Part shown: positions 4,991 to 57,539 of the stretch, piece by piece | How positions within the stretch are numbered: the stretch's first letter is position 1 | Layout of the letters: the number at the start of each line of letters is the position of its first letter | NCBI RefSeq assembly: GCF_001029285.1 | Contig: NZ_LDZY01000003.1 | Span: 62,001 to 126,000, forward strand | DNA length: 64,000 nt | Direction: 5' to 3' | Origin: Desulfosporosinus acididurans | Lineage (GTDB): Bacteria > Bacillota > Desulfitobacteriia > Desulfitobacteriales > Desulfitobacteriaceae | Translations under genes and position numbers: made by a program | Notes under the pieces: model-generated | Database searches by the model: none | The model's input: the letters and a program-made list of their open reading frames with translations, nothing else | Told to the model about the DNA's origin: nothing

Positions 4991-5758
4991 ATGGAACATA
5001 AATTTTCGAGAACTGAACTTTTAATTGGCAGTGAGGGCTTAGAAAAGCTTCGCCTCAGTACGGTCCTCATTTTCGGAATAGGCGGAGTCGGTTCCTATAC
5101 CGTCGAAGCACTGGCGCGCGCCTCAGTTGGTCATTTAATTATGGTTGATTTTGATGAAATCAGCATTTCAAATCTCAACCGTCAAATCCATGCTCTTCAC
5201 TCCACGATTGGTGAAGCGAAGGTAGAAGTTATGCAACGCCGAATCAAAGAGATAAATCCGGAGGCTCACGTTGAAATCTTCAAAGAATTTATTTCAGCAG
5301 AAAATGTTGCCGATTTCCTGCAAAGGAAACCGGACTATGTGGTGGATGCCATCGATACAGTTTCCAGCAAAGTAATTTTAATCAAAGAATGTTTAGCACG
5401 GGAAATACCTTTAATCTCAAGTATGGGGGCTGGCAACAGGCTTACAGCCGAAAATTACCAAGTCAGTGACATTTCCAAGACCAGTGGTGACCCCCTGGCG
5501 AAAACCATGCGCAAATTACTGCGTCAAGAAGGTATCACGCGCGGCGTGAAGGTAGTTTCCAGTTCCGAACTTCCGATCGCCCCTATTTCTTCAGTCTCTC
5601 CGGCTCCTTCGTCCGACAATTCAACGACTATTAATTCCGAAAACGAAGGAACTCTCGCGATGCAAAAGCGTCAAACTCCGGGAAGCATCTCCTTTGTGCC
5701 ATCGGTAGTTGGGTTGCTTATAGCGGGAGAAGTTGTCCGGGATCTATTAAAGGGATAG
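4991..5758 (+). CDS. tcdA: tRNA threonylcarbamoyladenosine dehydratase
   Basis: The 255-residue protein is an E1-like (ThiF/MoeB fold) enzyme. The nucleotide loop GIGGVGS spans 29-35, the acidic DFDE follows at 53-56 and NLNRQ lies at 61-65. VVDAID and SSMGAGNR are further family marks. TcdA uses ATP to cyclise t6A37 of tRNA to ct6A. The length matches the family. The ribosome binding site is a weak GGGGGA. The TAG stop shares its last two bases with the first two of a dispersed element, so that element may have inserted exactly at the stop codon. A distant ThiF-type activity cannot be excluded, but the C-terminal FVPSVVGLLIAGEVV pattern favours TcdA. Confidence 0.88.
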   Translation: MEHKFSRTELLIGSEGLEKLRLSTVLIFGIGGVGSYTVEALARASVGHLIMVDFDEISISNLNRQIHALHSTIGEAKVEVMQRRIKEINPEAHVEIFKEFISAENVADFLQRKPDYVVDAIDTVSSKVILIKECLAREIPLISSMGAGNRLTAENYQVSDISKTSGDPLAKTMRKLLRQEGITRGVKVVSSSELPIAPISSVSPAPSSDNSTTINSENEGTLAMQKRQTPGSISFVPSVVGLLIAGEVVRDLLKG

Positions 5759-5888
5759 TGAACTCGTTCAGCCAAAGCTGAGTATCGGGGCTTCAGATAC
5801 AATAATGCCCAGTGGATATATTTGCCGAGCCGCCTTTCCCAATAGGAATACTTAGCGGCGAAGGAGGACTCTACCCCACCTGAAGTTA
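5757..5888 (+). repeat. Dispersed hairpin element, type I, copy A
   Basis: This is one of about eleven related copies or fragments. It begins AGTGAACTCGTTCAG, the left-end hairpin region. Paired segments follow: CTTCAG (5791-5796) with CTGAAG (5880-5885), an imperfect internal hairpin around 5801-5825, and GCCGC (5829-5833) with GCGGC (5855-5859). The right end seems to be lost next to the Uma2 fossil. No reading frame is present. The hairpin ends suggest a non-autonomous IS200/IS605-type element, and the conserved pairing suggests a structured RNA. The origin is inferred. Confidence 0.7.
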
Positions 5889-7016: not shown

Positions 7017-8312
7017 TCAGCAGGACGAAGCTATCTGAATCTTCCCGGCATTAATTATCCGAGATACCGATTCCAGTGTGACGACTCTACAAAAAACCTC
7101 AACTAATTTAGGGTCTAATTGTGATCCGGCAACTCTCTTCAGCTCTTCAATGGCTTCCTCATGAGTCTTACCTTTACGGTAACTCCGATCTGACGTAATC
7201 GCATCATAGGTATCGGCTACAGCAATAATCCGAGACTCTAGGGGAATATCTTCTCCTTGAATCCCATCGGGATAGCCTTTGCCGTCATAACGCTCATGAT
7301 GATGACGAACTACTTGTCCGATATCGAACATAAATTTTATGCTTTTGATAATGGTTTCCCCAATAACCGGATGACTGCGAATGGATTCCCATTCCGAATC
7401 CAACAATTTGCCTTCTTTATTCAAGATTATTTCGCTAACCCCTATCTTTCCGACGTCATGCAATACAGCTGCATATTTAAGAAACTCCGTCTTATCTTCG
7501 TTCATTTCAATTTCTTCTGCTATGACGACGGCAAGTTTCCCAACTCTTGCCGAATGCCCGCTAGTATATTTATCCTTGGCCTCAAGAGCCTGGACAAGAG
7601 CTTCTACAGTATTAAGGTAATTTTCGCGCATATCCATATAGAGTTGAAAAGAATGGCGGCAAACTAAGAGAGGAATAAAAAGCAAAAAAAGTCCTAAGGC
7701 TCCATAATTATAAAAAATTAAGGCCATTAAATAGCCCACTGGCACAAGAGCCATGAAGTTTGGCAAAGCCCAACGCATATTACTTATCCATATTGACCAA
7801 GGAGACTTTCTTTGAAGAAAGCCCAGAGCTAAAGTTACTATAGAAATATTAGTAATCATGTAAGCAAAAGCTACCAATATATAACCTACTAAAGAAGAAA
7901 TTTTTGTATGAAAACTTTCTATTCCTGTCAGCTTTAAAACACATACAGCTGCTGCTTGCGATAATAAATATTGAGAACCGTTAAATACACGTTTAAATAG
8001 AGGCGTATCTTTGGACGCATTTCCTAAGGGAAAAAGGCCTCCTACAGCTGCAACAATAAGAGCTCCACAGGAAGGAAAAAGGATCACTGCTGTAAAGAAA
8101 ACTGAATAACTAACTGTAACAAATCCACCTCTTGGAAGAGCAACTGGAAGAGATTCGCTGGCAATTGCTAAGATGCTAAAAATTAGAATGTCAATAAACT
8201 GATTATTATTCCAAACCGAATTTTTTGCGGAAATAATCAATATTAAAACGGCTAATATAGTAACTAAAATAAAAAGGCCTTTAAATCTTTTGGATAATGA
8301 ATGCATCTTCAA
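7017..8312 (-). CDS. Membrane-anchored HD-GYP c-di-GMP phosphodiesterase
   Basis: The 431-residue protein has an N-terminal membrane domain (residues 10-220, about six helices) with a conserved VALPRGGFVTVS loop at 57-68. A C-terminal HD-GYP domain follows. The metal-binding HD is H285-D286, HHHERYDGKGYPDG holds the GYP triad at 346-348, and RIIAVADTYDAITSDRSYR follows. All expected catalytic residues are present, so hydrolysis of cyclic di-GMP is likely. It is a paralogue of the protein at 33345-34625. Its start lies just inside a segment bounded by 32-nt inverted repeats (8329-8557) and 36 bp after a small ORF, so its expression may depend on that segment. Confidence 0.9.
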   Translation of the reverse strand: MKMHSLSKRFKGLFILVTILAVLILIISAKNSVWNNNQFIDILIFSILAIASESLPVALPRGGFVTVSYSVFFTAVILFPSCGALIVAAVGGLFPLGNASKDTPLFKRVFNGSQYLLSQAAAVCVLKLTGIESFHTKISSLVGYILVAFAYMITNISIVTLALGFLQRKSPWSIWISNMRWALPNFMALVPVGYLMALIFYNYGALGLFLLFIPLLVCRHSFQLYMDMRENYLNTVEALVQALEAKDKYTSGHSARVGKLAVVIAEEIEMNEDKTEFLKYAAVLHDVGKIGVSEIILNKEGKLLDSEWESIRSHPVIGETIIKSIKFMFDIGQVVRHHHERYDGKGYPDGIQGEDIPLESRIIAVADTYDAITSDRSYRKGKTHEEAIEELKRVAGSQLDPKLVEVFCRVVTLESVSRIINAGKIQIASSC

Positions 8313-11336: not shown

Positions 11337-11340
11337 CAGG

Positions 11341-11512
11341 GAACTTGTTCAGCTCAAGCTGAACATCGGGGTTTCAGATACAATAATGTCCAATGGACAT
11401 TATTGCCGAGCCGCCTTTCCCAATAAGAATACTTAGCGGCGAAGGAGGACTCTACCCCACCTGAAGTTAACGAAGGACCAAGGGGATGTGTAGAAACTTA
11501 GGGTTAAAAATT
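11341..11512 (+). repeat. Dispersed hairpin element, type I, copy B
   Basis: It starts GAACTTGTTCAGCTCAAGCTGAAC, whose inner part is a hairpin. It contains a perfect internal hairpin (11381-11405, CAATAATGTCC/GGACATTATTG), then CCGCC/GCGGCG and the shared AAGGAGGACTC, and ends in degenerate GGGTTAAAAATT. It lies between the hcp operator and the GntR-ABC operon. Confidence 0.7.
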
Positions 11513-14384: not shown

Positions 14385-14498
14385 CAGTATATAGTGTTTG
14401 GTGTTATTTTTCAACGTAAAATTGATTCATTAATGTCGAAAAACCATAAAGAATATAACTGGAAGGATATTCCATATTTGCAGAGAAAGCCTACTAGG

Positions 14499-14678
14499 GA
14501 ATTCGTTCACCTAAAGCTGAACATCGGAGCTTCGGTGACGAAAGTGTCCTGTGGGCACTTTCGCCGAAAGCGCCTAGCCCATAACAAATACTATCGCGCT
14601 GAAGGATGGACTCTGTCCCCACCGAAGCAAGGTATGGGAACCACTCCCACTTGTAGAGGCAGGAGTCTTACGATTGAT
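14499..14678 (+). repeat. Dispersed hairpin element, type II, copy C
   Basis: This is the fullest type II copy. It starts GAATTCGTTCAC and ends GTCTTACGATTGATTGAA. Stems seen are GCTTCGGTG (14529-14537) with CACCGAAGC (14620-14628), an internal hairpin at 14539-14563 (CGAAAGTGTCC/GGGCACTTTCG), AGCGC (14569-14573) with GCGCT (14596-14600), and a right-end hairpin near CACTCCCACTTG. An open frame covers most of it (14382-14681), but its sequence is that of the repeat and I do not call it a gene. Confidence 0.75.
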
Positions 14679-19265: not shown

Positions 19266-19396
19266 TCTGAAATGATAGTCTCCACTGGAGACGATCATTT
19301 CAGAGCCTATACCAAAAGGAATACTTCGCGGCAAAGGAGGACTCTGACCCAACAAGCAACGTATGATGGGACCCACTTCCACTGCTAAAATCGGAA
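19266..19396 (+). repeat. Dispersed hairpin element, copy J
   Basis: A 17-pair hairpin (TCTGAAATGAT..ATCATTTCAGA, 19266-19304) is followed by AATACTTCGCGGC, AAAGGAGGACTCTGACCC and GGGACCCACTTCC. The order matches other copies, but the hairpin sequence is different. The left-end hairpin is missing. Its right part resembles type II and its middle resembles type I, so it may be a hybrid. It lies between the ABC exporter genes and the RND adaptor gene. Confidence 0.6.
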
Positions 19397-19414
19397 ATCT
19401 TATAATTGGATAAA

Positions 19415-28933: not shown

Positions 28934-29116
28934 AGTGAACTCGTTCTCTAAAGCTGAACATCGGGGCTTCGGTGACGCAAGTGTCCTGTGGACACTTGCG
29001 CCGAAAGCGCCTAGCCCATAACAAATGCTATCGCGCTGAAGGATAGAGTCTCCCCACCATCGAAGCAAGGTATGGGAACCGCTCCCACATACAGAAGCGG
29101 GAGTTTTTCAATTGAG
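28934..29116 (+). repeat. Dispersed hairpin element, type II, copy D
   Basis: It begins AGTGAACTCGTTC and carries GGCTTCGGTG, a perfect hairpin at 28976-29000 (CGCAAGTGTCC/GGACACTTGCG), AGCGC/GCGCT and a right-end hairpin (GCTCCCAC..). It ends TTTTTCAATTGAG. Compared with copy C the internal hairpin has two changes that keep a pair (A to C matched by T to G). It lies between oppA and oppB on the opposite strand. Confidence 0.75.
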
Positions 29117-29201
29117 TGAACTAAAAGATAAAATAAACAAACCGGGAACCGGCTTGAAACCGGTTCTCGGCAGTCTAAATTCTTAAAGAACTACACCAAA
29201 G

Positions 29202-30981: not shown

Positions 30982-31108
30982 AAGTGAACTCGTTGAGCTA
31001 AAGCTGAAGCCCCGATAGGAGTACTTAGCGACGAAGGAGGACTCTTCCCCACCTGAAGTTAACGAAGGACACACCCCCCACTTATAGACGTGGGGACCTT
31101 AAAAACCG
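30982..31108 (+). repeat. Dispersed hairpin element, type I, copy E
   Basis: It begins AAGTGAACTCGTTGAGC and is shortened, moving straight to CCCGATAGGAGTACTTAGCG, AAGGAGGACTC and CCACCTGAAG. The right end is intact, with hairpin CCCCAC..GTGGGG then ACCTTAAAAACCGGATCAA. It is the best view of the type I right end. It lies in the 416-bp gap between the response regulator and oppA, which otherwise shows no gene. Confidence 0.72.
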
Positions 31109-31192
31109 GATCAATAAATACGGCACTTACTAATATGCTTCATAGTAAGTGCCGCTGCTAATCCCAACTATAATTCAACTCCGGATCATAAA

Positions 31193-33310: not shown

Positions 33311-33349
33311 AATAGTAATAGACGTTAGGGTCTTAAAAACTGGATCAAG
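33311..33349 (+). repeat. Dispersed hairpin element, right-end fragment H
   Basis: TAGACGTTAGGGTCTTAAAAACTGGATCAAG matches the right end of copy E (TATAGACGTGGGGACC and so on) with a few changes. The terminal GGATCAA supplies the stop codon (TCA on the plus strand) of the HD-GYP gene that ends at 33345. Confidence 0.55.
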
Positions 33350-34625
33350 TAAAGGAACCTAGATAACAGACTTCTTTCTGTTCAAAGTCATTTTTCATTA
33401 AATCACAGAAGACGCCTACTAATTCAGGGTCCAGTTGAGATCCTGAAACTCTCATTAATTCTTCAACCGCCTCATCATGCGATCTACCCGGTCGATAACT
33501 TCGATCAGAGATGATTGCATCGTATGTATCGGCAACGGCGATGATCCGTGATTCTAAGGGTATTTCCTCCTCCTTAATTCCGTCAGGATATCCTTTTCCG
33601 TCGTAGCGTTCATGATGATGACGTACCACTTTCCCGATATCAAACATAAATTTAATATTTTCGATGATCCCTTGTCCGATAACGGGATGGCTGCGAATTA
33701 AATCCCACTCCGTCTCCAGAAGTTCTCCTTCCTTATTGAGAATAACATCACTTATCCCGATCTTGCCAACATCATGCAAAACAGCCGCATACTTCAGAAA
33801 TTCAATTTTATCCTCACTCATCTCAATGGCCTCGGCTATAATAAGTGCAAGTCTTTCGACTCTGGACGAATGCCCGCTGGTATAATTATCCTTTGCTTCA
33901 AGGGCCTGGACAAGAGCACCAACGGTTTCGAGATGACCTTTTCGCATGGTAATATAAAGCTGAAAAGACCTGTGCGCTGCTAAGAGCGGTATTAAAAGCA
34001 GTAAAAGTCCCAAAGGTCCATGGTGATAATAAATCAAAGCCATTATGTACCCTACAGGGGCGAGAATAATAATATTTGGCAGCACCCAGCGCATATTACT
34101 CAGCCAAATTGCCCGCATCGGCTTATCTTTCAGAAAACTTAAGCCTATTGTCACAAGGGAAATATTGGAAAGCATATAAATTAGAGATACCATGACATAT
34201 ATGACGAGGGAACGAAACTTATTATGAAAACCGCCGCCAATTCCCGCAAGCCACAAAACATATTGAGCAACGGCCTGAGATAACAAATACTGAGAACTGT
34301 TATATAGCCGTTTAAACAAAGGATGTTCTTTGGCGCCCCTCCCCAACGGAAAGAGACCTCCTAATACTGAAACTGAAAAAGCAACGCCTCCAGGGTATAA
34401 AATTAACGCCGTGTAGAAAACGGCAAAACTTACTGTGACAAACCCACCTCGCGGTAAGGCTACAGGAAATGATTCACAAAGTACGGCAAGTATTCCTAAA
34501 ATCAAAAGATGTGTTATCGTTGCTGAGGTCCATTTCGTATGAACTATTGAAACCAAGAGAAGTGCAGACGCCAGAACCGTTATCAGCAGGAGAAAACGCT
34601 TAAATTTAATGGGCAAGTTGTTCAT
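33345..34625 (-). CDS. Membrane-anchored HD-GYP phosphodiesterase, second copy
   Basis: This 426-residue paralogue of the protein at 7017-8312 keeps the same layout, with a six-helix membrane domain containing VALPRGGFVTVS and a C-terminal HD-GYP domain (HDVGKIG, HHHERYDGKGYPDG, RIIAVADTYDAIISDRSYR). All catalytic residues are kept. The C-terminal tail differs from the first copy, and its stop codon lies in a repeat fragment. It has no inverted-repeat segment or small ORF upstream, so the two copies are probably regulated differently. Confidence 0.88.
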   Translation of the reverse strand: MNNLPIKFKRFLLLITVLASALLLVSIVHTKWTSATITHLLILGILAVLCESFPVALPRGGFVTVSFAVFYTALILYPGGVAFSVSVLGGLFPLGRGAKEHPLFKRLYNSSQYLLSQAVAQYVLWLAGIGGGFHNKFRSLVIYVMVSLIYMLSNISLVTIGLSFLKDKPMRAIWLSNMRWVLPNIIILAPVGYIMALIYYHHGPLGLLLLLIPLLAAHRSFQLYITMRKGHLETVGALVQALEAKDNYTSGHSSRVERLALIIAEAIEMSEDKIEFLKYAAVLHDVGKIGISDVILNKEGELLETEWDLIRSHPVIGQGIIENIKFMFDIGKVVRHHHERYDGKGYPDGIKEEEIPLESRIIAVADTYDAIISDRSYRPGRSHDEAVEELMRVSGSQLDPELVGVFCDLMKNDFEQKEVCYLGSFT

Positions 34626-36685: not shown

Positions 36686-36778
36686 AATTGATCCAATCGT
36701 AAGACTCCCACTTCTTTAAGTGGGAGTGGGTCCCCCACCGAAGTCTCGATGTTCAGCTTTAGCTGAACGAGTTCACTT
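36686..36778 (-). repeat. Dispersed hairpin element, type II, minimal copy F
   Basis: On the minus strand it runs AGTGAACTCGTTCAGC, AAAGCTGAACATCGAG, CTTCGGTGGGGGACCC, then a perfect right-end hairpin ACTCCCACTT/AAGTGGGAGT and GTCTTACGATTGGATCAA. The internal hairpins are deleted, so it consists of two ends only. It follows the anti-sigma gene directly. The 294-bp gap to the SIMPL gene holds nothing else recognised. Confidence 0.75.
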
Positions 36779-47920: not shown

Positions 47921-47990
47921 AATTTATCCAGTTTTTAAGGTCCCCACTACTTGAAGCCCCGATGTTCGGCTTTAGCTGAATGAGTTCACT
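47921..47990 (-). repeat. Dispersed hairpin element, type I, short copy G
   Basis: On the minus strand it runs AGTGAACTCATTCAGC, AAAGCCGAACATCGGGGC, TTCAAGTAGTGGGGACC, and TTAAAAACTGGATAAATT. It has lost the middle of the element. It lies between serA and the DUF1015 gene, splitting what would otherwise be a compact operon. Confidence 0.7.
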
Positions 47991-57454: not shown

Positions 57455-57511
57455 ACTATCCTTTTATATACAACCTTTTGTCGTTTATTCTATTAACAAT
57501 AGATTAACGGT

Positions 57512-57539
57512 AGAGTCCCCCGCCGAAGTCTCGATGTTG
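57512..57539 (-). repeat. Dispersed hairpin element, fragment I
   Basis: On the minus strand CCAACATCGAGACTTCGGC and GGGGGACTCT match copy F (ACATCGAGACTTCGGTGGGGGACCC). Both ends are missing. It directly follows the livF stop codon. Confidence 0.45.

Follow-up and report, generated by a model that had tools for sequence, protein, structure and literature searches.

The hairpin-bearing repeats of Desulfosporosinus acididurans are probably non-autonomous elements that transpose in the manner of the IS200/IS605 type and would be moved as single-stranded DNA by Y1/HUH chemistry provided in trans. It was found that these repeats were precisely inserted beside a pre-existing ATNAA/TTNAT pentamer, and that a guide base of the element covaried with the third base of the target over independent insertion sites. 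The stems were conserved as structures, and selection for folding was supported.

The copies present in the analysed window, a 64,000-nucleotide stretch of the genome, are collected in the table. Read in the orientation of copy C, the core consists of AGTGAACTC, the hairpin H1 (GTTCAGCT/AGCTGAAC), ATCGGGG, the outer stem H2 (CTTCGGTGGGGG/CCCCCACCGAAG), a spacer, the hairpin H3 (ACTCCCACTT/AAGTGGGAGT) and CTTACGATTGG, and is followed by ATNAA. On the transposition (IS) strand, TTNAT is followed by CC..., the guide (T/C/A)AAG or GAG, H3, H2, H1 and GAGTTCAC(T), with H3 as the left end, H2 in the middle and H1 as the right end. Each end carries a subterminal hairpin (H1, H3), and terminal inverted repeats are absent. 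No open reading frame was found inside any copy.

Features of the repeat copies in the 64-kb window (positions are those of the window)
Feature	Position	Strand	Remark
Copy C, full-length type II element	14496..14676	+	IS strand probably minus
Copy C, hairpin H1, decayed (GTTCACCT/AGCTGAAC)	14505..14522	+	IS-strand right-end hairpin; consensus GTTCAGCT/AGCTGAAC
Copy C, outer stem H2	14529..14628	+	GCTTCGGTG 14529-14537 pairs with CACCGAAGC 14620-14628
Copy C, inserted module of ~66 nt (ACG...GAAGG), hairpin a and stem b	14538..14606	+	missing in short core elements
Copy C, module hairpin a	14539..14563	+	CGAAAGTGTCC-TGT-GGGCACTTTCG, one G.T
Copy C, module stem b (third stem)	14569..14600	+	AGCGC 14569-14573 / GCGCT 14596-14600, conserved loop
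Copy C, hairpin H3	14643..14666	+	IS-strand left-end hairpin
Copy C, CTT directly 3' of H3	14667..14669	+	putative guide AAG on the IS strand, from guide-target covariation
Copy A, type I, without its right end	5757..5888	+	outer stem CTTCAG/CTGAAG
Copy B, type I, decayed right end	11338..11479	+	hairpin a CAATAATGTCC/GGACATTATTG at 11381-11405
Copy J, long-stem module and right half of core	19266..19414	+	CTCTGAAATGATAGTCTCC / GGAGACGATCATTTCAGAG, one mismatch
Copy D, type II	28934..29118	+	hairpin a CGCAAGTGTCC/GGACACTTGCG at 28976-29000; empty site in five congeneric genomes
Type I copy with internal deletion	30983..31114	+	different form at the same site in G008
Right-end fragment	33318..33348	+	
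90-nt form without H2 and module	36688..36777	-	clean empty site in G008; IS-strand target TTGAT
68-nt deletion form	47923..47990	-	
H1/H2 fragment	57509..57538	-	

Size classes of about 51, 90, 116-121 and 181-190 nt were distinguished, and the whole element ranged from 113 to 340 nt. The shorter classes seem to have lost whole hairpins by deletion between short direct repeats. The 181-190-nt class is the core with one module (hairpin a and stem b) in the H2 loop, and types I and II are two subfamilies of this core-plus-module form. The window also contains a 300-nt direct repeat of 74% identity (7089-7388 and 33405-33704), which overlaps two predicted minus-strand genes, the second with HDIG/response-regulator matches.

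All of the stems listed by a previous sequence-only reading of this DNA were located where it had placed them when the sequence was read directly, and the three stems of copy C were recovered by folding: its minimum-energy fold contained them all (z -3.2 as DNA and -2.8 as RNA). The fold of copy B gave a z of -4.0. The 4.64-Mb genome was found to hold 136 left ends (<=3 mismatches), compared with 0 for a reversed pattern control.

Covariation was assessed with a self-written, R-scape-like test, in which substitutions were re-thrown on a FastTree tree after Fitch reconstruction. The statistic was the APC-corrected G, and E was the number of null pairs expected over the whole alignment. The module alignment comprised 83 sequences, chosen by anchors outside most of the tested positions, and the core alignment comprised 87 sequences with distant families included. 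Significant covariation, which the sequence-only reading had expected from an alignment of many copies, was present above the tree-based null. In the modules, E<=0.1 was reached by two pairs only, and these belong to hairpin a: pair 9-19 (E=0 in 200 simulations) and pair 5-23 (E=0.015). In the core, the H1 pair 15-22 gave E=0.0125 and seven H2 pairs gave p=0.002-0.025. Every one of the three alignment-wide significant pairs fell in a stem that had been proposed, and E stayed above 0.1 for all other pairs of either alignment. The combined p values of whole helices, in which pairs were treated as independent, were 1e-11 for hairpin a, 8e-8 for H2, 6e-4 for H1, 7e-4 for stem b and 3e-3 for H3.

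Same-branch double changes in hairpin a numbered five at pair 9-19, four of which kept the pair, and four at pair 5-23, three of which kept it; this was more than a founder effect alone. Stem b gave p=0.003-0.005 at two pairs, with only 2-3 substitutions each and no same-branch double change, hence its changes were founder-level. Hairpin a had changed several times independently, whereas the third stem (GCCGC/AGCGC) varied between founders only. A restriction to subfamily founders accounted for that stem and for several type I/II differences, but did not by itself account for hairpin a. The hairpin a change of copy D was present in a single copy among type II. Positions 7-21 of this hairpin retained a G.G mismatch in 22 of the 83 sequences of the cleaned alignment, with all other pairs matching.

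Within subfamilies, the internal stems accumulated fewer changes per site than the loops (0.011-0.020 vs 0.054 for type I and 0.047-0.09 vs 0.129 for type II), a comparison in which arm a and H1 had partly served for copy detection. However, most stem changes broke pairs: within the genome, the type I changes comprised 47 broken, 24 wobble and 3 double-paired cases. The proposal that conservation was stronger than expected for decaying repeats was not supported for the resident copies, in which most stem changes broke or wobbled the pair. Altered stems were also recorded in other Firmicute families, namely H2 CTTCAGTGGGGG/CCCCCACTGAAG and H3 ACTCCACCTT/AAGGTGGAGT in genome G323 and H2 GAATCAGATGGAG/CTCCACCTGATT in G092.

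Element-free orthologous sites were identified in close relatives for the copies at 36688-36777 and 28934 and for locus L138. At 36688-36777 the sequence is AACCACAAATCAATT where the element is absent and AACCACAA / GTGAAC...GATTGG / ATCAATT where it is present (junctions marked by slashes), hence the target pentamer pre-dated the insertion. The duplication amounted to 0-1 nt, and the empty site of L138 left 1 nt unexplained. In a target logo of 61 copies, the right flank was ATAAA in 40, ATCAA in 4 and ATGAA in 2, and the left flank was random. In G323, 28 distinct insertions of near-identical elements had the form A / GTGAAC...TTGGG / ATNAA; ATNAA was present in 28/28 and ATAAA in 26/28. Read on the other strand, the insertion occurred directly 3' of TTNAT.

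Further, the guide base, taken as the base directly 3' of H3, was tabulated against target base 3 at distinct sites. A guide T was accompanied by a target A in 115/134 cases, and a guide C by a target G in 20/37 cases, compared with 2/134 for guide T. The association was strong (Fisher p=5e-14, or 2.5e-12 without G323); a possible common ancestry among copies of one guide type qualifies it, yet the insertion sites are separate events. On the transposition strand, TTTAT accompanied guide AAG and TTCAT accompanied guide GAG, which is an exchange of A-T for G-C. IS608 selects its target through pairing with the left guide (GL AAAG, CL TTAC, CR TCAA, GR GAAT; PMC5934647), and ISDra2 is inserted 3' of TTGAT (PMC2806898). 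If borne out, the guide-target covariation over many independent insertions would be evidence from natural evolution, beyond laboratory work, that transposons of this class choose their targets by base pairing. It also offers a computational test for finding further transposase-less members.

We proposed that a Y1 transposase would cut the element DNA in single-stranded form, with H1 and H3 folded, and that the guide would base-pair with the target in the fashion of IS608. Only copies that can still fold would be mobilised, which would make the stems covary, and the resident copies would then decay. Transposition alone does not account for what H2 and the modules do.

Besides the unexplained nucleotide at L138, the lack of a Y1 enzyme with these ends and of a replication orientation bias count against the IS200/IS605-type reading, as does the role of H2 and the modules. 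The Y1 genes inspected in Desulfosporosinus had other ends or other repeats, and none bore the element ends. A search of the collected loci for a left and a right end separated by 0.35-4.5 kb found no transposase inside the element copies, and no autonomous copy was found in plasmids, phages or viral contigs. IS605 copies near elements (L071, L188) had their own ends. An IS605 deletion remnant with Y1 and TnpB ends was observed between two partial elements (L071 1240-1864). A preference for the lagging-strand template is expected of IS200/IS605 members, but the copies showed no orientation bias (31/37/39/36, p=0.50; p=0.46 in G323), GC skew on contigs being the proxy for replication direction. 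The elements were therefore classed as probable non-autonomous elements that work like IS200/IS605 and were not filed as members.

The sequence-only reading had left the choice between RNA and single-strand DNA open. A structured non-coding RNA family, whether regulatory or left over from a TnpB system as a guide-RNA-like remnant, would explain the covariation by selection on the transcript, and the conserved module loops are in line with it. The ratio of G.T to A.C mispairs would reveal the selected strand; it leaned slightly towards G.T in modules (29:14, p=0.03 uncorrected) and the opposite way in the core (31:48), with no overall strand asymmetry. Orientation to the flanking genes was random (52:39), which also set aside a 3'-UTR or terminator role, and 136/140 copies lay outside open reading frames of >=90 aa, with 4/140 inside. 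The search of Rfam 15 with the element gave no match at E<=1, so HEARO/omega-RNA and other Rfam families were rejected as identities, and tnpB was neither within nor abutting the copies examined. A further Rfam search returned chance-level matches only, besides a c-di-AMP riboswitch (84 bits; L222 70-209, minus strand), which is unrelated to the elements and lies ~1 kb from a multi-module one. Because the mispairs were balanced, the gene orientation random and Rfam matches absent, the transcript is an unlikely object of selection; the pair-breaking majority of changes within subfamilies also left selection on RNA unsupported. The single-strand DNA option was better supported, since single-strand transposition fits both the guide-target covariation and the way in which the elements insert. 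Covariation in a repeat alone does not imply RNA, which is a caution for stem-based claims.

It is somewhat unlikely, and yet the most serious competing explanation, that the complementarity of the arms is mainly mutational rather than selected, arising by template-switch correction of imperfect palindromes or by gene conversion between copies, with only H1 and H3 mattering for mobility. Same-branch and single-copy double changes, such as that of copy D, could each be made by one template switch; the hairpin-removing deletions between short direct repeats (51-, 90- and 120-nt classes) mark the palindromes as mutationally active, and the absent strand asymmetry agrees with this. Against it stand the lower rate of change in internal stems than in loops within subfamilies, with the detection bias of arm a and H1 given above, and the pairing kept across families over long divergence. 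Movement as REPs/BIMEs by the host RAYT (TnpA_REP) was judged unlikely. The elements are intergenic mosaics of hairpin units in high copy number, a RAYT-like Y1 gene of 266 aa is present in this genome (L070 1464-2264; G000 C20:24634), relatives of 250-350 aa occur in most Desulfosporosinus genomes, and REPs inserted in palindromes are a known precedent (PMC3733652). However, the repeat flanking this RAYT gene is a different one, GGACCGTCC(C)...TGACAC, no element ends were found at RAYT loci, the GTAG/GGAG tag is absent, and the element measures 113-340 nt, not 20-40.

Multi-module forms of 220-337 nt were found in other genomes, including module-in-module and inverted arrangements. Among 103 modules, H2 contained 63 in the same sense and 13 inverted; 16 were classed as lying within the hairpin loop of another module, of which about 12 are real and four are mutated H2 arms, and a few sat in unrelated palindromes. 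A nested element of 337 nt folded at -169 kcal/mol, compared with -101 for shuffles (z -12). The ~66-nt module (hairpin a and stem b) may insert into hairpin loops in either sense, giving the nested forms, and its hosts would be the core H2, hairpin a of other modules and a few unrelated palindromes. We only tentatively regard the module as a mobile unit in its own right and one of the smallest known. Its targets would be the apical loops of DNA hairpins, including its own hairpins and unrelated palindromes, and recursive insertion would build nested, still foldable elements of up to 337 nt. Such nesting would represent recursive growth of a palindromic element. The module was also observed in loops of unrelated palindromic repeats of a second and a third host family (L048, L052, L053, L056, L062, L323), some of which carry further nested hairpins.

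The element was also carried by other Desulfosporosinus genomes, and core homologues were detected in 13/398 Firmicute genomes of several families. In Tepidibacillus decaturensis (Bacillales; L237 2457) the element had H2 AATCAGGTGGAG/CTCCACCTGATT; the wide and patchy distribution suggests transfer. The G323 genome, of another family and 2.2 Mb in size, carried at least 40 copies of a 113-nt core with 98-100% identity (L339, L352, L360, L388-L407). Judged by this identity, these copies represent a recent burst, and the genome is a place to look for an active enzyme.

Compared with known systems, the element resembles IS200/IS605 in having no terminal inverted repeats and a hairpin close to both ends, in a short fixed target with insertion on its 3' side (TTGAT for ISDra2; TTTAT, TTGAT or TTCAT here), in a guide located just 5' of the left hairpin (AAAG/TTAC in IS608; AAG with TTTAT and GAG with TTCAT here) and in a right end, TTCAC(T), resembling the target. 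It differs in lacking tnpA and tnpB at a size of only 113-340 nt, in carrying nested modules and one more covarying stem, in its middle, and in showing no replication orientation bias. The REP/BIME/REPIN systems with RAYT are likewise many short, palindromic, non-coding intergenic mosaics, and for the element too a Y1 enzyme acting in trans is the probable mover. The element is longer, however, its layout is defined and asymmetric, its target is TTNAT, it lacks the GTAG tag and it does not adjoin the host RAYT. DDE-derived MITEs are similarly small, non-coding and of high copy number, whereas the element has neither terminal inverted repeats nor the usual 2-9 bp target-site duplication; both were looked for and neither was found, so a MITE identity was rejected. 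BOX and other modular small bacterial repeats have fixed outer parts enclosing hairpin modules whose number varies. The element shares this layout, but its modules nest in the hairpin loops of each other, in both senses, and also in unrelated palindromes.
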